From Candidatus Latescibacterota bacterium (GTDB lineage Bacteria > JAAXHH01): DNA of 64,000 bases. The notes beneath the pieces were generated by a model. That model saw only the letters and a list, made by a program, of their open reading frames with translations. It ran no database searches and was not told the DNA's origin. Below, piece by piece: positions 1 to 30,488 of this stretch. Every line of letters starts with the position of its first letter. Position 1 is the first letter of the stretch. Location of the stretch: assembly GCA_022823465.1 (NCBI GenBank), contig JAJEHX010000042.1, forward strand, positions 144,047 to 208,046, written 5' to 3'. The position numbers and the translations under genes are program-made.

Positions 1-974
1 AAAGAACGCCCTCGCGGGACAGGCTGCCCCTGGAGTTGACGCAGAATCCCTTGTATCGCCGTAAGGGCAAGATCCTCGAAGGGGATGGAAAGCGTTGTCA
101 GGGATGGGTTGACGTAAGCGGAGACTTCGAAGTCTCCGCAGCCGGTTACCGCCACGTCATCCGGAACATGCGCGCCGGATTCGATCAGCGCCCGGCAGAC
201 GCCGAGGGCCGTGTAATCACAACAGCATACGACGGCCGTGAACCGGCCGCCCAGTTCCTTGCCCAGATGGTATCCGGAACGGATGCGGGCGGCTTCGACG
301 GGAGCGAGGCGAGGGGCCAGACCGTACCTGCGCATCGCATTGCGATAACCCGCTCCCAGCGCCGGCAGGCCATCGGCCCGAATCCCGTCTTCGCCCAGAA
401 AGCAGATCCGTTCATGCCCGAGACCGATCAGATGCTCGGTAACCTCCTGAATGCCCGATGACAGGTCCAGTGAAACGGCGGTCATATCGTCTGCCGCGTA
501 TCCAAAAGTCGCAACCGGCAGGCTGGCCGGCACGGCGTGAACGATCCGTCCGGACTCGGCGTCGTCGCCGATCGTCTGGATCAGGATACCGTCCACGTCG
601 CGGGACGCGAGTTGCATGAGCTGCTCCAGCCGTTCGCTTTCAAGGGCAGACGCGGTCCGTCCGGAAGCCGCCGCGACCAGAACCTGGTAACCGTGCCTGC
701 CGGCGGTACGTACCAGGTGGTTAATCTGCCTGCCGGTGATTTCAGGTCCGATCCGACTGGTCAACAGGCCCAGGACGCCTTCTGTGCCCTTCACGAAAGT
801 CTGCGCCATGAGATTGGGCGAATAGTCCATGTCTTTCGCGGTCTGTTCTACGAGAAGACGCGTCTGTTCCTTGACGAGATGGGACCTGCGGGAAGACAGC
901 GCCCTGGAGACCGTGGAGTACGAAATGCCCAGGCGTCTGGCGATATCTTTGATCGTTACCGGTCTGTTTCTCAC
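1..974 (-). CDS. LacI-family transcriptional regulator (3' end cut by window edge)
   Basis: Reading the minus strand from a GTG at 974 gives an N-terminal LacI helix-turn-helix (TIKDIARRLGISYSTVSRAL) followed by a periplasmic-binding-protein-like effector domain. That domain includes DVDGILIQTIGDD, an HLIGLGHERICFLG stretch and PDDVAVTGCGDFEVS. About 324 codons are visible and the family is usually about 340, so only the last few residues are lost at base 1. The GTG was chosen because it opens the usual short lead-in to the helix-turn-helix and has AGGAA eight bases upstream; the frame stays open further upstream. It is divergent from the amino-acid permease at 1390, a plausible target. The ligand is unknown, probably a sugar or sugar derivative by family. 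Confidence 0.85.
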   Translation of the reverse strand, partial: MRNRPVTIKDIARRLGISYSTVSRALSSRRSHLVKEQTRLLVEQTAKDMDYSPNLMAQTFVKGTEGVLGLLTSRIGPEITGRQINHLVRTAGRHGYQVLVAAASGRTASALESERLEQLMQLASRDVDGILIQTIGDDAESGRIVHAVPASLPVATFGYAADDMTAVSLDLSSGIQEVTEHLIGLGHERICFLGEDGIRADGLPALGAGYRNAMRRYGLAPRLAPVEAARIRSGYHLGKELGGRFTAVVCCCDYTALGVCRALIESGAHVPDDVAVTGCGDFEVSAYVNPSLTTLSIPFEDLALTAIQGILRQLQGQPVPRGRS

Positions 975-1389
975 GGATCTGGTTCCTATGGCCGCACGCA
1001 GTTCATGTAGGCGCGAAGGCGTGATGCTGCCGTTTACGCACACGTGTGTATAAGGTAGATACCAGCCGGGAGGATTGTCAAGCGGCAAGGTGACCGCGCG
1101 GTTGTTTCGCGCTTGTCTTACGTTCAAAAGCCAGCGGTGCGACGGCCTGCCGGGCGCCGGCTGGTAGCGCGTCCGGCGACCCGCTGGCGTCCCGCCTGAT
1201 ACCCGCCTGACTGTCTACAGAAAATAAAACGATGGCGGACCACTCCTGTTGCATGGTATCTTGCCTCGACGCACCGGCCTGTCTACCGAAGAATACGCTG
1301 ATCGCCGCGGTCTCCCGGCCCCTTCCACTCACTTCCACGAGACCCGCGGCCATGCGCACACCGCGTGACGCATCACGGAATACGCACCT
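975..1389. other. Intergenic region between the divergent LacI gene and APC permease
   Basis: About 415 bases without a credible gene. It holds the operator-like palindrome and -35 box described separately near the LacI start. No convincing promoter or Shine-Dalgarno was found for the permease at 1390. A long minus-strand frame that begins here is a shadow of the permease gene. Confidence 0.5.
1035..1081 (-). promoter_or_regulatory. Candidate LacI promoter with LacI-type operator
   Basis: On the minus strand a perfect TTGACA (-35 consensus) lies at 1076-1081. Downstream at 1035-1052 is an imperfect 18-bp palindrome with the perfect core CACACGTGTG, centred on CG as LacI-family operators are. 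It sits about 60 bases upstream of the GTG start at 974, suggesting autoregulation. No good -10 box occurs at 17 bases spacing, so the promoter part is weak. Confidence 0.3.
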
Positions 1390-2769
1390 ATGACCTCTAA
1401 GCCTTCGTCCAGTCCCTTCGAGCTCGAGACCGAACTGAGACGGGATCTCGGCGTCGTATCGGCTACGAGCATCATCGTAGGAGGCATCATAGGCTCCGGC
1501 ATCTTCGGAGCGCCGGCCGGCATCGCGCAGCAACTGGGCAATCCCGGCCTGTTCCTCCTGGTCTGGATCGTCGGAGGCGCCCTGTGTTTCGCGGGCGCCC
1601 TGTGCTTCGCCGAACTCGGCACCATGATGCCCCGCAGCGGCGGACAGTTCGTCTACCTCAAGGAGGCCTTTCCGCCCATCGTGGCCTTCCTGTACGGATG
1701 GGTGGAAGTCGTCCTGCTCCAGAGCGCCGGCCTGGCGGCCATCGGTGCGATCTGCACCAGTTACATGGGGTATTTCCTGCCCTTCATCTCGTCCCATGTG
1801 ACCGTGTTTGACCTCGGTTCCTTCGTTATTTCGTCCCAGCAGGTCGCGATCTGGATTCTCCTGATCTTCCTCTGCTTCGTAAACTACGTCGGCGTCCGAT
1901 TCGGCGGCCTGGTGATGAACCTGACCACATTCGCCAAGGTGACGGCCCTGGCCGGGCTCGCCCTGTTGGCGATCGCGATAGGTGGAGACGCGGGGCACTT
2001 CGAACCCATGGTACCGCCGGATATCGACGCGGGCATCCTGACCGTGCTGGGTCCGGCGATGATCGGCGCGCTCTTCGCGTACCAGGGATGGGTCAACACC
2101 AGCATGGTCATGGGGGAAGTGCGAGAGCCGCAACGCATACTGCCCCGGGTCATCCTGTTCGGCCTGGGCCTGTGCACGCTGGTCTACCTGGCCGTGAACT
2201 GGTCGTATCTTTACATCCTGGGCATCGACGGAATCGCGACCTCGGACCGGGTGGCGGCCGACGTCGCGACATGGTTGATCGGTCCCGTCGGCGGTTCGCT
2301 GATCTCCGCGGCGGTCATGATTTCAACCTTCGGGACGATGAACGGCACCCTGATCATCACGCCCAGAATACCGTACGCCATGGCGCGGGCGGGCATGTTC
2401 TTCAAGTCGTTTACCCATGTCCATCCCCGGTTCAAGACCCCTTCCCGCGCAATCCTGGCCACGACGGCCTGGGCCATCCTCTGGACCTTCCTGGGCAACT
2501 TCCAGGCCATCATCAACGCCTTCGTCTACATCGTCTACCTGTACTACGGGCTGAACGTCCTCGCCCTCATCGTACTCCGGCGCAAGCATCCGGACGCGAA
2601 GCGGCCTTACAAGGTACCCGGCTACCCCTACGTCCCCGTGTTTTTCCTGGTCGTGGTATCGTGGGTCGTGGTGACGGTCGTCACCCAGAACTTCCTGCAG
2701 GCGCTGCCCGGACTGGGCGTCCTCGGGCTGGGCGCCGTCGTGTACCTGGTCTGGTTCCGGAAAGCCTGA
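1390..2769 (+). CDS. APC-superfamily amino-acid permease
   Basis: A 459-residue integral membrane protein with about 12 hydrophobic segments, the usual size for the amino acid-polyamine-organocation family. The first helix carries GGIIGSGIF (residues 31-39), the unwound substrate-binding segment typical of the LAT/SLC7-like branch, followed by FAELGTMMPRSGGQFVYLKEAF. It should import or exchange amino acids across the inner membrane; the substrate cannot be read from sequence. The gene is divergent from the LacI regulator and convergent with the MFS gene, whose stop lies 20 bases beyond. No clear ribosome-binding site precedes the ATG. Confidence 0.85.
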   Translation: MTSKPSSSPFELETELRRDLGVVSATSIIVGGIIGSGIFGAPAGIAQQLGNPGLFLLVWIVGGALCFAGALCFAELGTMMPRSGGQFVYLKEAFPPIVAFLYGWVEVVLLQSAGLAAIGAICTSYMGYFLPFISSHVTVFDLGSFVISSQQVAIWILLIFLCFVNYVGVRFGGLVMNLTTFAKVTALAGLALLAIAIGGDAGHFEPMVPPDIDAGILTVLGPAMIGALFAYQGWVNTSMVMGEVREPQRILPRVILFGLGLCTLVYLAVNWSYLYILGIDGIATSDRVAADVATWLIGPVGGSLISAAVMISTFGTMNGTLIITPRIPYAMARAGMFFKSFTHVHPRFKTPSRAILATTAWAILWTFLGNFQAIINAFVYIVYLYYGLNVLALIVLRRKHPDAKRPYKVPGYPYVPVFFLVVVSWVVVTVVTQNFLQALPGLGVLGLGAVVYLVWFRKA

Positions 2770-2788
2770 ATCTCTTCCGGATCCGGGA

Positions 2789-4000
2789 CTATGCGGGCGA
2801 CTTCCCCTCTTTGAAACCCACCGCGAACAGAATCAGGACCAGTACGACCAGGGCGGCGGGCAGGCTCCAGAACACCTGCCAGTCGGACAGGCTCAGGCTC
2901 CCCGTCGAACCGAGAAAGGCATTGTATACGCGGCCGGCGATCTGGGCGCCGATCAGCATGCCCAGGCCGCTGGATACGAGGACGAACAGCCCCTGGGCCT
3001 GGCCGCGGTTGGCGGGCGTGGCCTGCTGGTCCATGTAGACGTGGGCCGTCACGAAGAAGAAGTCGTAGCAGATGCCGTGGAGGATGATCCCCGTGACGAT
3101 GAAGGACCACAGGGCGTCCGGCGCGCCGAGAGAGAACAGCCCGTACCGGATGATCCAGGCCGCCATCGCGATCAGCAGCATCCGCTTCACGCCGAGCCGG
3201 CGGAAGAAGAAGGGCATGCACAGCATCAGGAACACCTCGGAAAACTGGCCCAGCGTCTGCGTGCCCGCGATGTTCGCGAAACCGGCCGCGCCGAGGTAGA
3301 TCTGCGTGAAGTTGTAATAGAAGGCCAGGGGGATGCAGAGGAGCAGGGCGCTGAGAATGAACAGGTAGAACGACCGGCTTCCCAGTTCCTGCAACGCGTC
3401 CAGGCCGATCACGGAACGTAACGACGCCTTCCTTCCCGCGGCGGCCGGCGGCGTTCTGCCGAGCGTGAAGCTGTACAGCCCCATGACCAGGCCGGCCACT
3501 CCCGTCGTGTACAGCGGCCAGGCTGTCTCTTCGGGAATGATCCGGCCCGAGAAAAGACCCAGGACGAAGCTGATGAAGAGCCCCGCGGCGATCCAGCCGA
3601 TCGTGCCAAACACCCGGATCAGGGGATACTGCGCTTCCCGGTCCTCGACGCGGTGAAAGGTGATGGCGTTCACCAGTCCGAGGGTCGGCATGTAGCAGAT
3701 ATTGTAGACCAGCAGAAGAACGATGAAGAGGAGCGGCGTATCCACGGCACGGGGAACGAGCAGCATCACGCAGCCCGCCAGGATGTGCAGCCATCCGAGG
3801 ATCCGCTCCGGCGCGAAATAGCGGTCCGCCACCAGGCCCAGGAAGAAGGGGGAGATAATCGCGGCCACGGGGTTGACCGTGTAAGGCCAGTGGGTCAGGT
3901 CGCCCATCCCGTGGGCGCTCATGTAGACGGCAATCGTCGTGAACCAGGCCCCCCAGATGAAGAACTGGAGGAACATCATGAGACTGAGGGATGGGGACAT
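2789..4000 (-). CDS. Nucleoside:H+ symporter-type MFS transporter
   Basis: 403 residues with about 12 transmembrane segments. The N-terminus (MMFLQFFIWGAWFTTIAVYM) and the GLVADRYFAPERILGWLH loop resemble the NupG/XapB nucleoside:H+ symporter family of the major facilitator superfamily. Import of nucleosides or a related small polar solute is the family role; the substrate here is not proven. It lies 27 bases downstream of the TonB-like gene on the same strand and may be cotranscribed with it. It converges on the APC permease. Confidence 0.8.
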   Translation of the reverse strand: MSPSLSLMMFLQFFIWGAWFTTIAVYMSAHGMGDLTHWPYTVNPVAAIISPFFLGLVADRYFAPERILGWLHILAGCVMLLVPRAVDTPLLFIVLLLVYNICYMPTLGLVNAITFHRVEDREAQYPLIRVFGTIGWIAAGLFISFVLGLFSGRIIPEETAWPLYTTGVAGLVMGLYSFTLGRTPPAAAGRKASLRSVIGLDALQELGSRSFYLFILSALLLCIPLAFYYNFTQIYLGAAGFANIAGTQTLGQFSEVFLMLCMPFFFRRLGVKRMLLIAMAAWIIRYGLFSLGAPDALWSFIVTGIILHGICYDFFFVTAHVYMDQQATPANRGQAQGLFVLVSSGLGMLIGAQIAGRVYNAFLGSTGSLSLSDWQVFWSLPAALVVLVLILFAVGFKEGKSPA

Positions 4001-4027
4001 GGAATCCTGGTTCGGCCGGAAGCGAGG

Positions 4028-4894
4028 TTATCTGCCTACCTTGTAGCCATAGCCTACGGCGATCCACGCCTTGACGGGCCGTTGTCTCAAGGTGGCGGGA
4101 TGATACTGTGAGGCGTAGATCTTCTCGAGCAGAAGCTGATCGATCTCCGGGTACCCCGTCGACTCGATCATCGTGGCGTCGACGACCCTGCCCTGTTCAT
4201 CGATCAGCAACTCGAACCGGACGATGCTGTCCTTTACGTGACGGAGTTTCCTTGGGATCTCTTTCCGGGAAATGCTCATATTGAGGCGCCGCGGTATCGG
4301 GCGTGTGTCGAATTTCCAGGCACCGCCGTCCCGGTCGCCCAGGCCACCCGAACCGCCGGTCCCGCTTCCCCCCTCGACACCGCCGTCTATACCGGAACCT
4401 CCCATGCCCGCCTCATCGCCCGATTCGTCCTCGGTGTCCATGGCGACGGCCACGGCGCTTTCCATCTCTTCCTGGGACGCGATCTCGTGCTCCTCGGCGA
4501 TCAGGCTGTCGTCGACCGGCTCCGGAATGCCGACGACCACGGGAACGGGTACGCCCTTGCTCATGATGTCGTCTCCGGGGTCCTCAGGCGGTTCGAGCCG
4601 GCCGGGACGGCCGCCGCCGCGCTCCGTCGTGACCAGCCTGCTCGGATCGATGAGATCGATCAGGTGGTCGGGATAGGGCATGATTTCGAGCTCCACCATG
4701 GGCTCGAAGTCGATCCGGCTATACAGGTAGACCCCGCCGACGGCGAAGAAATGCACGAAGGCGGCGCACCAGATCCCGGCGGCGAGAAACCGCCGCGAGA
4801 CCCGTTTGAGCGGGTGAGGAACCAGGTCATCGACCTCGTACCGTTCAAGGAAGCGTCCCATCCGGTGCGCGATTTGTCCAAAGCCACCGTTCAT
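4028..4894 (-). CDS. TonB-family energy-transducer-like protein
   Basis: 288 residues. A cytoplasmic N-terminus of about 35 residues precedes one transmembrane helix (about 38-58), then an acidic and glycine-rich periplasmic linker (about 90-190), and a TonB C-terminal fold (about 215-288) with VRFELLIDEQGRVVDATMIESTG. TonB proteins pass the proton-motive force from ExbB/ExbD to outer-membrane receptors. No exbBD or receptor gene lies in the window. The linker lacks the usual Pro-Glu/Pro-Lys repeats and instead has GGSG-type runs. The N-terminal cytoplasmic stretch is long, so a start nearer the helix (MGRFLERYE) is possible. Confidence 0.75.
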   Translation of the reverse strand: MNGGFGQIAHRMGRFLERYEVDDLVPHPLKRVSRRFLAAGIWCAAFVHFFAVGGVYLYSRIDFEPMVELEIMPYPDHLIDLIDPSRLVTTERGGGRPGRLEPPEDPGDDIMSKGVPVPVVVGIPEPVDDSLIAEEHEIASQEEMESAVAVAMDTEDESGDEAGMGGSGIDGGVEGGSGTGGSGGLGDRDGGAWKFDTRPIPRRLNMSISRKEIPRKLRHVKDSIVRFELLIDEQGRVVDATMIESTGYPEIDQLLLEKIYASQYHPATLRQRPVKAWIAVGYGYKVGR

Positions 4895-5250
4895 GGCGGG
4901 CCCTCACGGTTCCGGGCACGGAGGCCGGCCCGGCAGGAAACTAACGCCTGGTCCAATACGTATATAGTCCACCGTGCATGCTGCACTGTCAAGGTTTTTG
5001 GCCGTATAGCCGGGACCTTTCGACCTCGCACTAAGACCCCGAGTAGACCCCACGCGGGGCGCCCATAAAACGCTTGACAGAGACCCACCCCGGTTTCATC
5101 ATGCCTTACGCTTTCAGGTTCGTCCCGCCTTGCCGGTCGAGCCGGGCATCCGCTTGTATTTCAATGCCTTCAGGACAGGTTCATCCCGCGGTCATCCGGC
5201 CGGTTGTCACCGGTGGCCGCCGCGTCGTTTATCGAAAGGGAAGCACGCGC
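4895..5250. other. Intergenic region between divergent TonB-like and cyclophilin genes
   Basis: About 355 bases without a supported gene. For the minus strand a TTGACA lies at 4987-4992, with an inverted repeat (GTGCA-3-TGCAC, 4974-4986) just downstream and a TATATA-rich stretch about 20 bases beyond the -35; this is a possible regulated tonB promoter with poor spacing. A plus-strand promoter candidate is listed separately. An open frame from 5074 joins the cyclophilin frame but looks noncoding before 5251. Confidence 0.4.
5074..5102 (+). promoter_or_regulatory. Candidate promoter for the cyclophilin gene
   Basis: TTGACA at 5074-5079 is followed after 17 bases by CATCAT at 5097-5102, which matches four of six -10 positions. 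It lies about 150 bases upstream of the chosen ATG at 5251. Confidence 0.3.
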
Positions 5251-22402: not shown

Positions 22403-22434
22403 TCGCGACCCGCTTCTCCGATCGCGACCCGCTT
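22403..22434. repeat. 13-bp direct repeat at 19-bp spacing
   Basis: TCGCGACCCGCTT occurs at 22403-22415 and again at 22422-22434. A related GCGCCACCCG motif occurs twice nearby (about 22360-22400). The second copy reaches the stop codon of the STAND gene, so the repeats lie between it and thiL. Confidence 0.55.
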
Positions 22435-25207
22435 ACGCGTCTTCCGCGAACCGCCCCTCGGGCCGTTCCCTCGAGCGGGTGAAGATCTCTATGCCGGCCG
22501 TAACGCCGCCGGCGAAGAGCAGCCCCTCCAGGGCGCCCAGGGCGATCTGGGTGGTGCGGCCGAATTCTCCCTCGCCGAAGATCGTCGCAATGGTTTCGAG
22601 CCGTATCTGCGACGCGTCGAAGGACTGCCGCATGATTTCCAGGCTGCCGGTGAACATGTTGCCGCCCATCACGGTCAGGGCGATACTGGCGATCATGCCG
22701 CCCAACGCGCCGAAGACGATATAGAGCAGGCTCCGCCACTGCCCGGGCCGCCGGACCAGGTAATACGTGACGACCGGGCCCAGGGCCACGCCCGCGCCGA
22801 TAAGCGCGCCCTCGGCCCCCCCGGTAAGCCCCGTGGGATACTGGCCGAACAGGGTTTCAAGGGTATCTGAACTGTACAGATTGAATGACGCGCCCACCAT
22901 GCCGCCGCCCAGCGCTCCGCCCAATACGCCGAGCCACCGGCCGTATTTCCCCGATACGCGCCGCAGGGCGACCATGCCGAAGGACACGCCCGCACCGCCA
23001 AAAGCGCCGCCGAACAGGCCCAGGCCCGCCAGGACGAAGATGGGCGAGAGTGTTTCCGACGGCAGGCCGGAACCGGTAGCGGCGAGGGCGGTTCCCAGGA
23101 GAAGTCCGCCAAACAGGCCGGCCACGGCGCCGCCGAACGTTCCGCCGACTCCTTGCTGCATGATGTCGATCCCGCCCTGTTGCAGGCGCATCAAGATGAA
23201 ACCGACCATCACCATAACCCTGTACAGCCGGGAGAGTTTGACAGACCGGTTCTGTTCCCGCAGAAAGGCCAGGCTGACGGCGCGTTGCAGGCGGCTCACG
23301 GACTCGTTACCCGTGGGACGGGTCAGGATGGATTCCACGGCCGAACCGAACCAGTCCGCCAATTCGATGCTCGCCGCCCGGCGCACCTTCAGCGCGGGGT
23401 CCCGCAAGGCGAGGTGCCTGAGCCGGGTGTTCAGGGCCGCGCAGCGCACGGGCCGGGATGACTCCACCGCGCGGCGGCGGACTTCCTGGCGGTCGTTGTA
23501 CATGGCCTCCAGGATCACGTTCAGCGCATCCGGCACCATTTCGACCAGCCAGGCCGGCACGGGCCGGTCCCTGTTGAGCAGACTGATGCAAAGCAGGTAC
23601 GCTTCCTGGCCGGAGACCCCGATTTCTTCCAGGTAGGGCGAGAGCAGGTCCAGGCTTTCTCGGTCCATGATGAGCTGGTAGGTCCTGTAATTCTCCAACG
23701 ATCGTTCGAGCAGGCTGCGTGCCTGCTTTGCTTCATAGACGCTATTGGTCAGCCAGCGGGACACCTCCGGAATCAGGCATTCGTGGGCGAGTTCAAGCCA
23801 CCCCTCTCCCTCCTGGTTCCGCCGCCTGACGATACGGGCATCGACCAGTTCCCCGAGCAGCGCTCCAAGGGCAGCGTCGTCGTACCGGTCGCCTCCCTGG
23901 ACACGCGCGGTCAGTTCGGCCTGCCGCACGACGATGAGCCGTTCATCCGCGGAGATGAGCGCCAGAAGCACCTGCTGCACCACGGACAGGTCGGCCGGCG
24001 AAAACCGGCGTAGCACCCTCGCGAGATAGTCGGCAAGGATCTGCGAAGCGCCGCCCAGATCGTCATAGGCCGATTCCGTGATCAGGTTTCCCGTATTGCG
24101 TTGATCGTACAGTGTATCGCATACGATTTGCAGATGCGGCGGATCGACGGCGTCCTGGTCGGAGAGATCATCCAGCAGACGGTTCACGAGCGTATCTTCG
24201 AACCGGCATCCTACCCGCCAGGCCGGTCCCGTGATGGCCCTGGCGGCCTGTTCGGGGGATAGCCGGGCAAGCCTATACTCGTGGTGGAATATCTCCGGAA
24301 CCGCCTGTTTGAGTTGGCTCATCTCTGCAAGCATGTCTTCCCTCAGCACGAATACGAACTGCAGAGGGAGCGTATCATCCTCCATGATTGCGCCCAGCTC
24401 GCTGATGAACGCCTGCCGGCTCTCCGCGTCGAGCAGGAGGAAAAACTCTTCGAACTGGTCCAGCATGACGACGAGTCGGGATGATGGACCGGCCCGTAAG
24501 CGATAGAGCAATTCCCGAAGTGACAGTCCTGCCGGGTCGGCTTCTTCATTTCCGTCTTCGCGGACTAGTCGCCGAACTATATGCGTCATGTGCTGAAGCG
24601 GGTCGGTGAAACTCCGGATGATGCAGGTCCGGTGGCCCTGGTCCTGCAACCAGGGAATGAGGCCGGCCCGAAGAATCGAACTCTTGCCGACGCCGGAACG
24701 GCCGTAGAGGAGAAATGACCGGCGGGAAAGGATGCGGGAACAAATGTTCTCGATCTCCTCCTCGCGGCCGAAGAAAAGGCCCTGGTCGTTTTCGGTGTAA
24801 TAGTCGAGGAACTTGTACGGCCGGGTCGGCTTGCCCTGGGCCGGACTGCCCTGGGCCGGCGGGGAAGGTTCATCCAGGATCTCCACCGCGTCGCCGATGA
24901 AGACGTATCCATGCTTGGGTACCGTTTTGACGTAGCGGGGGTTCGACGCGTCGTCCCCCAACTGTTTTCGGATCGACTTGATACACTGGGTCAGCGCCGT
25001 GTCGCTGACGATTACGTCCTCCCATACTTCATCGAAGATACGGTTCTTTTCCACCAGTTGCCCCGCGTTGGACACCAGCAGCACGAGTACATCGAAATAC
25101 CTGGAACTCAAGGGCAGCGCGGTATCATTCAGGCGAACCTGGCGATTCTGGATGTCCAGCACGAAGTCGTCGAACCGGAAGCCTTTGGCAGCGGTCTGTT
25201 GCGTCAT
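22433..25207 (-). CDS. Winged-helix / STAND-NTPase / multi-pass membrane protein
   Basis: 924 residues. Residues 8-105 form an OmpR/CadC-type winged helix (ending PRYVKTVPKHGYVFIG). A Pro/Gly linker follows, then GLFFGREEEIE and a STAND-type P-loop ATPase (nSTAND1-like): Walker A GRSGVGKSS (169-177), Walker B VVMLDQFEEFF (D250), FVLRED, and the winged-helix element ELAHECLIPEVSRW. Next come HEAT-like helices (about 580-660) and, from about 685 to the end, a glycine-rich region of seven to nine membrane segments. It looks like a membrane-tethered, nucleotide-switched DNA-binding sensor; the signal and targets are unknown. The neighbours are housekeeping genes (thiL, ribB), with no effector or defence gene. 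Divergent from ribB. Confidence 0.8.
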   Translation of the reverse strand: MTQQTAAKGFRFDDFVLDIQNRQVRLNDTALPLSSRYFDVLVLLVSNAGQLVEKNRIFDEVWEDVIVSDTALTQCIKSIRKQLGDDASNPRYVKTVPKHGYVFIGDAVEILDEPSPPAQGSPAQGKPTRPYKFLDYYTENDQGLFFGREEEIENICSRILSRRSFLLYGRSGVGKSSILRAGLIPWLQDQGHRTCIIRSFTDPLQHMTHIVRRLVREDGNEEADPAGLSLRELLYRLRAGPSSRLVVMLDQFEEFFLLLDAESRQAFISELGAIMEDDTLPLQFVFVLREDMLAEMSQLKQAVPEIFHHEYRLARLSPEQAARAITGPAWRVGCRFEDTLVNRLLDDLSDQDAVDPPHLQIVCDTLYDQRNTGNLITESAYDDLGGASQILADYLARVLRRFSPADLSVVQQVLLALISADERLIVVRQAELTARVQGGDRYDDAALGALLGELVDARIVRRRNQEGEGWLELAHECLIPEVSRWLTNSVYEAKQARSLLERSLENYRTYQLIMDRESLDLLSPYLEEIGVSGQEAYLLCISLLNRDRPVPAWLVEMVPDALNVILEAMYNDRQEVRRRAVESSRPVRCAALNTRLRHLALRDPALKVRRAASIELADWFGSAVESILTRPTGNESVSRLQRAVSLAFLREQNRSVKLSRLYRVMVMVGFILMRLQQGGIDIMQQGVGGTFGGAVAGLFGGLLLGTALAATGSGLPSETLSPIFVLAGLGLFGGAFGGAGVSFGMVALRRVSGKYGRWLGVLGGALGGGMVGASFNLYSSDTLETLFGQYPTGLTGGAEGALIGAGVALGPVVTYYLVRRPGQWRSLLYIVFGALGGMIASIALTVMGGNMFTGSLEIMRQSFDASQIRLETIATIFGEGEFGRTTQIALGALEGLLFAGGVTAGIEIFTRSRERPEGRFAEDA
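24831..24860 (-). repeat. 15-bp tandem duplication in the STAND gene linker
   Basis: Two copies of a 15-bp unit (TTGCCCTGGGCCGGA and CTGCCCTGGGCCGGC on the plus strand) encode the repeated PAQG segment between the winged helix and the ATPase. The reading frame is preserved. Confidence 0.65.
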
Positions 25208-27244: not shown

Positions 27245-28174
27245 ATGAACCTTGCGGATCGACAACTCGTTGATCGGGAATCGGTGAAACGTTCCTATGA
27301 TTTCTGCCGAGAAATCGCGAAATCGAGGGCGAGGAACTTCTACTATTCCTTTATCATCCTGCCACCGGAACGAAGACGGGCCATGTGCGCGGTTTACGCC
27401 TTTATGCGCCACTGCGACGACGTCGTCGACGAGGAGGCCGTGGAGGCCGACAAGAAAACCCGGTTGAACGCGTGCCGCGAGACCCTGGACGACGCCTATG
27501 ACGGAGACGCCTGTAACGGAGGTGCCTGTAACGGAGACGCCCGTGAAGGAACGCAGGCAGGCGGCGGACTGTTGCCGGCGTTCAGGGATACGGTGAAGCG
27601 GTTCGGCATCCCGAGGGCGTACTTCGACGCCATCATCGACGGCGCGGAAATGGACCTTACCGTGACACGCTACGCGACCTTCGAGGACCTGTACCAGTAC
27701 TGCTACCGCGTGGCTTCCGCCGTCGGACTGGTGTGCATACACATATTCGGATTCAACGGCAAAGAAGCCAGACAATACGCCGAATCCTGCGGTATCGCCT
27801 TTCAACTTACCAATATACTCCGCGACGTCCGGGAAGACGCCGGGATGGGCCGTATCTACCTGCCGCAGGAAGACCTCGAAGCCTTCGGGTACTCGGAGGA
27901 AGAACTACGGGGCGGCGTTTTCAACGATGCGTTCCGGCGGCTGATGGCCTTCCAGGTAGAACGCGCGAGACGCTATTACGACGAAGCGCTTCCGCTCCTT
28001 CCGCTGGTCCGGTCCTCGAGCAGGGCATGTCTGGCGGCCATGATCGGCATCTACCGGGCATGCCTCGAAGAGATCCCCCGCCGGCAGTACGATGTGTATA
28101 GCCGGCGCATCAGCCTGTCCGCCTGGAAGAAGCTCGCCATCACCGCCCGGGCGCTGATCCGAAAGCGCGTATGA
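27245..28174 (+). CDS. hpnD: HpnD, presqualene diphosphate synthase
   Basis: 309 residues of the squalene/phytoene synthase fold. It condenses two farnesyl diphosphates to presqualene diphosphate. Motifs: CREIAKSRARNFYYSF, the first Asp-rich motif MRHCDDVVDEE, the second QLTNILRDVREDAGMGRIYLP, and the GYSEEEL segment common in HpnD. Between the first motif and the core is an unusual low-complexity insert (GDACNGGACNGDARE) created by a threefold 15-bp duplication. Its stop overlaps the hpnE start by four bases (ATGA), so the two are translationally coupled. Confidence 0.9.
   Translation: MNLADRQLVDRESVKRSYDFCREIAKSRARNFYYSFIILPPERRRAMCAVYAFMRHCDDVVDEEAVEADKKTRLNACRETLDDAYDGDACNGGACNGDAREGTQAGGGLLPAFRDTVKRFGIPRAYFDAIIDGAEMDLTVTRYATFEDLYQYCYRVASAVGLVCIHIFGFNGKEARQYAESCGIAFQLTNILRDVREDAGMGRIYLPQEDLEAFGYSEEELRGGVFNDAFRRLMAFQVERARRYYDEALPLLPLVRSSSRACLAAMIGIYRACLEEIPRRQYDVYSRRISLSAWKKLAITARALIRKRV
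27503..27547 (+). repeat. 15-bp tandem repeat, three copies, inside hpnD
   Basis: GGAGACGCCTGTAAC, GGAGGTGCCTGTAAC and GGAGACGCCCGTGAA follow one another in frame and encode GDACN, GGACN and GDARE. The insert lies in a loop-like position after the first Asp-rich motif. Confidence 0.75.
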
Positions 28175-29622
28175 GCCGGGTAATCGTCATCGGCGGCGGG
28201 CTGGCCGGACTGGCCGGAGCGGTCGCACTGGCCGACGCCGGTCTCCGGGTCGAACTGTACGAAAGGCGTCCGATCCTGGGAGGCCGCGCGTCTTCCTTCA
28301 TACACCCGTCGAGCGGCGAAAGGGTGGACAACTGCCAGCACGTGCTCCTGGGATGCTGCGTCAACCTCCTCGACTTCTACGCCCGCCTCGGCGTCCGGGA
28401 CCGCATCGCCTTCCACGAGACCATTCCGTTCATCGACGAGTCCAGCCGGGTTTCGGTCATTGGACCCTCCCGCCTCCCGCCTCCCCTTCACCTGTTCCCA
28501 TCGTTCCTGCGGCTGCGAACGATGGGATTTCGGGACAAGCTGTCGATCGTCCGTACCGTGGCGGGCATGATTCGCTACGTTCTGACACAACGGAAAACGG
28601 ACTCCCTGGCAGGACGCCATGCCGCGGAAGCGACGTCCCCGGTTTCCATGGCCGCCTGGCTCGCGGTCCACGGCGCGACGGGGCGGGCCGTGGAGGCCTT
28701 CTGGAAACCCTTCCTGATCAGTGCGCTCAACGATGAGCTGGACGACATCGACGCCGAATACGGCATCAGGACGGCCGTCCGGGCCTTTCTGATCAATCGA
28801 CGCGGGTACGAGGTGGGGCTGCCCGCCGTGCCGCTGGGAGACCTGTACGCGCCCTGCATAGATTACATCGAGCGGCGGGGCGGGCGCGTCGTACTCGACC
28901 AGGGTGTCGCCGGCATATCGACCGACGGCGGCCGCGTGGCTTCCATCTCGCTGCAGGACGGTTCGTCCGTCGAGGCCGGGGCCTGCCTGTCGGCCCTGCC
29001 ATTCGACGTCCTGTGCAGGCTGCTGCCCGCGGACCATGCGGCGAATCCCTACTTCGCGATTCTGAGCGGACTGTCGGTTTCTCCCATCACGGCCGTGCAC
29101 GTCTGGTTCGACCGGCCCGTGACGGAACTGGACTACGCAGCGGTGATCGGACGGCGGATACAGTGGATATTCAACCAGTCCATTAGAGACCCCGACGCCT
29201 TTTCCACAGGTGGCGGAGGCACCTATCTCGGGCTCGTGGTCAGCGCTTCCGATGAATGGATGAAGATGCCGCAGCAGATGATTATCGACCAGACCATGGA
29301 AGACCTCGGGGCCCTGCTGCCCGCCGTGCGCCAGGCCGAACTGCTCAAGGCCATCGTCGTCAAGGAGGGCAGGGCCACGTTCGCGCCCAGGCCCGGCTGC
29401 GACGCGCTGCGTCCCGGGCCGTCCAGCCCCCTATCCAATTTATTCGTCGCGGGCGACTGGGTCCAGACGGGCTGGCCGGCGACCATGGAAAGCGCCGTGC
29501 GCAGCGGTTACCAGGCCGCCGAGGCCCTGCTGCGCGCCCGGGGCGTTCGGGCACCCATTCTGAAACCCGAATTGCCCCTCGAAGGCCTCATGAGATGGTT
29601 GGCGGGAAAACGGGATATCTGA
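28171..29622 (+). CDS. hpnE: HpnE, FAD-dependent hydroxysqualene reductase
   Basis: 483 residues of the phytoene desaturase-like amine oxidase fold. The FAD-binding Rossmann motif VIGGGLAGLAGAVAL opens the protein, followed by ERRPILGGRASSF and, near the C-terminus, LFVAGDWVQTGWPATMESAVRSGYQAAEAL. HpnE reduces hydroxysqualene to squalene as the last step of HpnCDE. It overlaps hpnD by four bases. No squalene-hopene cyclase gene follows, so the cyclised product, if any, is made elsewhere. Confidence 0.9.
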   Translation: MSRVIVIGGGLAGLAGAVALADAGLRVELYERRPILGGRASSFIHPSSGERVDNCQHVLLGCCVNLLDFYARLGVRDRIAFHETIPFIDESSRVSVIGPSRLPPPLHLFPSFLRLRTMGFRDKLSIVRTVAGMIRYVLTQRKTDSLAGRHAAEATSPVSMAAWLAVHGATGRAVEAFWKPFLISALNDELDDIDAEYGIRTAVRAFLINRRGYEVGLPAVPLGDLYAPCIDYIERRGGRVVLDQGVAGISTDGGRVASISLQDGSSVEAGACLSALPFDVLCRLLPADHAANPYFAILSGLSVSPITAVHVWFDRPVTELDYAAVIGRRIQWIFNQSIRDPDAFSTGGGGTYLGLVVSASDEWMKMPQQMIIDQTMEDLGALLPAVRQAELLKAIVVKEGRATFAPRPGCDALRPGPSSPLSNLFVAGDWVQTGWPATMESAVRSGYQAAEALLRARGVRAPILKPELPLEGLMRWLAGKRDI

Positions 29623-29635
29623 CCGGCACGATATC

Positions 29636-29675
29636 TTGACCCCATGGTACCCTTCGGTTATATTTCGAAGGGTAC
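29636..29675 (+). promoter_or_regulatory. Near-consensus promoter with an inverted repeat around the -10 box
   Basis: TTGACC (29636-29641) and TATATT (29659-29664) are 17 bases apart, a strong sigma70-type match. The arms GTACCCTTCG (29647-29656) and CGAAGGGTAC (29666-29675) form a perfect 10-bp inverted repeat flanking the -10 box. A dimeric repressor bound there would block transcription of the isomerase gene starting at 29721. The repeat could alternatively fold as a hairpin and act as a terminator for hpnE, but no T-run follows it. Confidence 0.6.
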
Positions 29676-29720
29676 TCATCCCCGTCCGCACACGTTTCGT
29701 TTCCCGAAAGAAGGATGCCT

Positions 29721-30488
29721 ATGCCCGCCAATCTGCTTGCATGCCGAACGGCAAGCTACGGAAAGTTCAGCGAATCCGCCTATGCCCATCTGCCCACGAC
29801 GGGCGTACGTCACGTTGAGATCAACGCCCCCGCGCCGGACGAGGTTGCCGCGGTCAAGGCCAGGCTGGAAGGCCACGGGCTGTCGGCCAGCAGCCTGCAG
29901 TGTCCGGTGGAAATCGAGTACGAGGACGTGGACACGCGGCTGACTCCCCACCTGGATGCCGCGGCGGCCCTGGGCGCCGGAACGCTCTTCGTGAGCGTAC
30001 AGGCCGGGGAACTGGACCGGAAGGTGGCTTACGAGCGGTTGCACCGCGCGGGAGTCAAAGCCGCCGAATACGGGATTACCATCGGCATGGAAACCCATCC
30101 CGACCTGATCACCAATGCGGCCGTCGCCCTGGAGACCATGCGCGGCGTCGATCACCCCAACGTCCGCGTGAACTACGACACGGCCAATATCCACTACTAC
30201 AACCGGGACGTGGACCACGTCGACGAAATGGAAAAAGTCATCGACTACATCGGCAGCATGCACCTCAAAGATACCGACGGAGGATACAAGACCTGGTGTT
30301 TCCCGACCTTCGGCGAGGGGATCGTCGATTTCAAGAAGGTCTTCGACCGGTTGAACGCCCACGGGTTCTATGGACCGTTCACCATGGAAATCGAGGGCGT
30401 GGAAGGGGAATTGCTGAACGAAGAAGAAACCTGCCGGCGCGTGGCGGACTCGGTGGCGCACCTGCGGAGCGTCGGGTGTGACGTGTAG
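29721..30488 (+). CDS. Sugar phosphate isomerase/epimerase-type TIM barrel
   Basis: 255 residues of the AP-endonuclease-2-like xylose-isomerase TIM-barrel superfamily. Metal ligands are recognisable in GMETHPD, VNYDTANI, GSMHLKDTD and FTMEIEG. Members isomerise or epimerise sugars, inosose or hydroxypyruvate; the substrate is unknown. ATG 29721 was chosen because GAAAGAAGG lies six bases upstream; the in-frame ATG at 29715 would sit on that site. The strong promoter with its inverted repeat lies directly upstream, so expression is probably controlled by a repressor. The GNAT gene follows after nine bases. Confidence 0.85.
   Translation: MPANLLACRTASYGKFSESAYAHLPTTGVRHVEINAPAPDEVAAVKARLEGHGLSASSLQCPVEIEYEDVDTRLTPHLDAAAALGAGTLFVSVQAGELDRKVAYERLHRAGVKAAEYGITIGMETHPDLITNAAVALETMRGVDHPNVRVNYDTANIHYYNRDVDHVDEMEKVIDYIGSMHLKDTDGGYKTWCFPTFGEGIVDFKKVFDRLNAHGFYGPFTMEIEGVEGELLNEEETCRRVADSVAHLRSVGCDV

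Follow-up and report, generated by a model that had tools for sequence, protein, structure and literature searches.

A conserved sigma-70-type promoter ahead of isomerase and GNAT genes in an uncultured bacterial clade, and a lineage-specific, most likely fortuitous inverted repeat around its -10 box

In bacterial control of the lac or tet type, an inverted repeat lies over the -10 region of the regulated promoter. For the Latescibacteria, the match returned by a literature search on promoters and sigma factors concerned rumen bacteria, judging by its title and the start of its abstract; the matches listed in a separate search on footprinting concerned methods and regulons. A comparable geometry is present in a 64,000-nucleotide stretch of a Candidatus Latescibacterota genome, hereafter the window, where a perfect 10-bp inverted repeat spans the -10 box of a promoter-like sequence ahead of a putative isomerase gene. 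The original prediction had taken this arrangement for a repressor operator and the genes behind it for an inducible unit. The locus was compared among 12 genomes of the genus, comprising the source genome (G000) and 11 congeners, and in more distant relatives.

Upstream of the promoter, a gene on the plus strand (positions 28171 to 29622) codes for an FAD amine oxidoreductase (PF01593, E 2.5e-43), here called hpnE after the original prediction. Downstream, a xylose-isomerase-like TIM-barrel protein (PF01261, E 1e-30) is encoded at 29721 to 30488 (plus strand), preceded by a ribosome-binding-like sequence, AAGAAGGA (29708 to 29715, plus strand), with GAAAGAAGG present in all 12 leaders. The isomerase more likely starts at 29721 than at the ATG at 29715 that opens the longest reading frame, because the latter overlaps the ribosome-binding-like site; the start at 29721, ATGCCCGC, was conserved in 12/12 genus genomes. 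A gene for a GNAT acetyltransferase (PF00583; 30498 to 31031, plus strand) lies 9 nt past the isomerase stop and follows the isomerase gene throughout the genus (12/12), and it is probably the second gene of the isomerase unit. The order hpnE, isomerase, GNAT, barrel, aminotransferase was found in 7/7 congener loci (L054 to L060), which belong to seven of the 12 genus genomes and so are not independent data. In two loci from the same family (L061 and L062), hpnE and the isomerase gene were again found together and the GNAT gene followed directly in one, while the aminotransferase was found in neither.

The promoter, as read from the window sequence, consists of TTGACC at 29636 to 29641, a 17-nt spacer and TATATT at 29659 to 29664, all on the plus strand. 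It matches the sigma-70 consensus at 10 of 12 positions, and its spacing falls within the 16 to 18 nt of that class. It had been called the best promoter in the window, which is too strong: five other window sites also reach 10/12 consensus matches, so that it ranks level with them and is not the single best. The promoter call itself was strongly supported by the congeners. Isomerase orthologues were found at 89 to 93% identity in all 11 other genus genomes (E <= 1e-40), and TTGACC, exactly 17 nt and TATATT preceded the gene in 12/12, in an alignment whose rows were chosen by promoter pattern, with all 12 genus loci passing and none dropped. All 12 hexamer columns were invariant, compared with 13 of 57 other columns (Fisher p 6e-7, uncorrected for the relatedness of the 12 genomes). 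Accordingly, the mean pairwise difference among the 12 genomes was 0 in the hexamers and 0.019 over the nine positions between the repeat arms, which include the -10 box; it amounted to 0.35 for the left and 0.31 for the right arm, about twice the 0.165 determined for third codon positions of the isomerase gene. Since the hexamers remained unchanged while the arms diverged beyond third codon positions, selection sees the promoter and not the palindrome. Selection on the hexamers, as found here across the 12 genomes, is what a sigma-70-type promoter is expected to show.

Outside the genus, isomerase orthologues (E <= 1e-40) were present in two genomes of the same family (75 and 66% identity), in 0/2 genomes of the same order and in 1/43 of the same domain. 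The pattern TTGAC-N12-24-TATWTT was not found before the isomerase gene in either same-family genome, G012 or G013. When the 150 nt upstream of the gene were scanned more loosely, TTGATT-17-TATATT (9/12) appeared at a comparable place in G013, and G012 gave a best match of only 9/12, with a poor -35 box. Perfect arms longer than 5 bp with loops of 3 to 20 nt were likewise absent from these 150 nt in both genomes.

The distance from the hpnE stop to the isomerase gene, measured to the position matching 29715, was 92 to 145 nt in nine genus genomes, 757 nt in G002 and 889 nt in G010, and in the latter two the promoter adjoins the isomerase gene. About 4.8 kb separate the hpnE end from the promoter in G004, where the promoter again lies directly before the isomerase gene. 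Because the promoter stays with the isomerase gene in G002, G010 and G004, it belongs to that gene and is not part of the hpnE end. The extra DNA itself occupies L059 at about 178 to 4950 (G004), L010 at about 2300 to 3030 (G002) and the matching gap of L018 (G010), that is, 3/12 genus genomes. It represents a BglII-type restriction-modification locus in G004, with genes for a DNA methylase (PF01555) and a BglII-type endonuclease (PF09195) and an open reading frame resembling proteases of the ClpP/SDH type, and amounts to about 0.65 to 0.8 kb in G002 and G010; the insert of G002 holds a 79-aa HicB-like open reading frame that scores below the Pfam cut-off (25.7 versus 27 bits). The gap between hpnE and the isomerase gene is possibly an insertion hot spot.

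Promoters of this kind were also sought throughout the G000 genome. TTGAC-N18-TATNNT occurred 118 times, versus 7 times for the reversed pattern, TTGAC-N17-19-TATATT 51 times versus 4, and the corresponding TATAAT version 15 times versus 1. TATATT is thus favored over TATAAT in G000, a hint that the clade differs slightly from E. coli in its preferred -10 box. Some of these matches are surely not promoters, and 12 of the 29 TATATT loci examined (out of 51 genome matches) lie across an open frame of at least 200 codons. As the 29 loci shared no strong common extension after TATATT, the conserved GTTATATTT of the isomerase promoter is not a general motif.

This GTTATATTT forms the 9-nt loop of the inverted repeat, whose arms, GTACCCTTCG at 29647 to 29656 and CGAAGGGTAC at 29666 to 29675 (both plus strand), were confirmed as perfect over 10 bp and as enclosing the -10 box. 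Across the 12 genomes, 3/10 columns of the left arm and 0/10 of the right arm were invariant, and the two arms are perfect partners in G000 only. In the same register, 10/10 Watson-Crick pairs were counted in G000, 8 in G011, 7 in G009, 4 each in G007, G004, G008, G001 and G010, and 3 each in G002, G005, G003 and G006. The promoter regions of G011 and G009 are the most similar to that of G000 (91% over 69 columns). Both keep six contiguous inner pairs (CCTTCG/CGAAGG) and have broken outer pairs; the changes relative to G000 lie in the left arm for G011 and in the right arm for G009. As G009 thus retains the left arm of G000 and G011 its right arm, a perfect repeat may have been present in the common ancestor of the three and have decayed since. 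An inner TTC/GAA triple was intact in 7/12 genomes including G000 (counted by eye), a length insufficient for an operator.

Considering chance, the window holds five perfect repeats whose arms reach 10 bp or more at loops of 0 to 20 nt (three of them with loop 0), whereas 10 first-order Markov sequences held 1.6 on average. For the 98-nt gap alone, a 10-bp arm with a loop of 3 to 20 nt was reached in 12/5000 Markov sequences. A repeat of this size would therefore be unusual for one given gap and unremarkable given that a genome contains thousands of such gaps.

The rarity of the repeat for a single gap, its position over the -10 box and the six contiguous inner pairs shared by G000, G009 and G011 are what speaks for a lineage-specific operator, in which a dimeric regulator bound to the arms would cover the -10 box and block initiation; the core CCTTCG-N9-CGAAGG might then serve in these three genomes, with the outer pairs as accessory. 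The outer pairs, however, are broken in G009 and G011, and nine further genomes retain only 3 to 4 of 10 pairs ahead of an unchanged promoter. A genome-wide search for the repeat, which the original prediction had suggested as a way to define a regulon, recovered only a single copy: in the 3.86-Mb G000 genome, neither exact 8-bp arms separated by 4 to 24 nt nor 10-bp arms separated by 9 nt, at up to 3 mismatches, gave a second one. Similarly, exact copies with 10-bp arms and a loop of 5 to 14 nt were absent from the 11 congeners, and when the intergenic region was searched as DNA against G000, it matched itself plus five short stretches at E 1.3 to 4.5. The regulator, said not to be evident nearby, was indeed absent from the seven neighboring proteins scanned (26.2 to 33.2 kb), none of which has a regulator domain, but 4.4 kb upstream of the promoter a 924-aa protein (22433 to 25207, minus strand) combines an OmpR-type DNA-binding domain with a following STAND NTPase domain (nSTAND1); its proximity may be counted in favor of an operator. 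Given a symmetry that is imperfect in 11/12 genomes with an identical promoter, a single genomic copy and no regulator domain among the seven neighbors scanned, the reading as an operator, and with it that of an inducible unit, is unsupported. An operator would be expected to keep its dyad in close relatives and to come with a regulon or an adjacent regulator gene, and neither was found here. We consider a lineage-specific operator quite unlikely, and it is likewise quite improbable that an operator arose recently in the spacer and early leader of the otherwise conserved promoter and places the isomerase and GNAT genes of this species, and perhaps those of its two closest relatives, under a regulator encoded elsewhere.

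A palindrome of another kind, TATATTTAGTC-NN-GNCTAAA, was met twice on a single G000 contig, each time covering a -10 box. The two promoters are similar, and their palindromes (TTTAGTC-NN-GNCTAAA) are found at L117:1501-1516 and L118:1501-1516 of contig C19. One of the two sites is located just before a gene for a DtxR-family regulator (PF01325, PF02742, FeoA). This palindrome had two copies in G000 at 0 to 1 mismatches, and weaker matches to the palindrome alone, at 2 mismatches, were at control level. A longer version of the pattern, with one mismatch allowed, matched in 7/12 genus genomes, in six of them before the DtxR-family gene (G000, G001, G004, G007, G009 and G011), although as a control this contrast is incomplete, with five genomes lacking a match and the G006 match not lying before the gene. 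In G009 and G011, two of the genomes with an imperfect isomerase palindrome, the DtxR palindrome keeps the 6/7 symmetric pairs of G000. It is a candidate metal-repressor operator of the DtxR/MntR family with autoregulation, and its recurrence, in contrast to the isomerase repeat, further argues against an operator at the latter.

The original prediction had also named a transcription terminator for hpnE as the alternative. The repeat begins 24 nt past the stop codon of hpnE and is able to fold as RNA, as would a hairpin that terminates or stabilizes the hpn transcript at its 3' end, but its stem is followed by TCATCCCC with no T-run, whereas an intrinsic terminator has a G+C-rich stem and then a T-run. 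A terminator scan called none at this place, and the fold of a 101-nt segment was unremarkable (z -1.18; 26/200 shuffles as good). The hairpin, with only 3 to 4 of its 10 pairs left in 9/12 genomes, was also absent from the consensus structure computed for seven of the 12 genus sequences, which was weak (-8.44 kcal/mol) with 1/27 pairs changed on both sides; no conserved RNA structure was found in the twelve leaders. A 3'-end hairpin is thus very unlikely. A mobile or dispersed element of the REP or MITE type, to which a perfect stem-loop within an intergenic gap might point, is extremely improbable in view of the single genomic copy, the lack of exact copies in the congeners and 0 Rfam matches in the window at gathering thresholds.

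At the level of sequence, then, the hexamers and their spacing are conserved and the symmetry around them is not. We conclude, at a probability of roughly 0.85, that an ordinary sigma-70-type promoter serves the isomerase and GNAT genes and that the inverted repeat is lineage specific and fortuitous, with no conserved regulatory role. TTGACC-17-TATATT, in the gap past the squalene-synthase-like and hpnE genes, would direct transcription of the isomerase and GNAT genes from a start near 29671, at the distance of about 7 nt past the -10 box that is expected of a sigma-70-type promoter, presumably with the housekeeping sigma factor. The repeat around the -10 box, real and found once, would have arisen in one lineage by drift in an unconstrained spacer and early leader, and most likely has no function. 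A conserved promoter is thereby given for an uncultured clade, the relatives of which have been deposited under the names Candidatus Latescibacterota or Gemmatimonadetes. The importance of the locus is otherwise small; comparison of congeners here separates a promoter that is kept from a palindrome that is probably fortuitous.

Among known systems, operators of the lac or tet type over a -10 box resemble the locus in that an inverted repeat spans the -10 region, and differ from it in that the candidate repeat is a single site with no regulator assigned and a symmetry that relatives have not kept. An intrinsic terminator shares the stem-loop past a stop codon; here the stem-loop lacks a T-run, is unconserved and holds a conserved promoter. 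The closest counterpart is the sigma-70 (RpoD-type) promoter, from which nothing essential sets the locus apart: the last -35 base is C instead of A and the -10 box reads TATATT instead of TATAAT, while TTGAC and TATATT are joined by a 17-nt spacer, both sequence and spacing are conserved, and the -10 box ends 56 nt upstream of the start codon.
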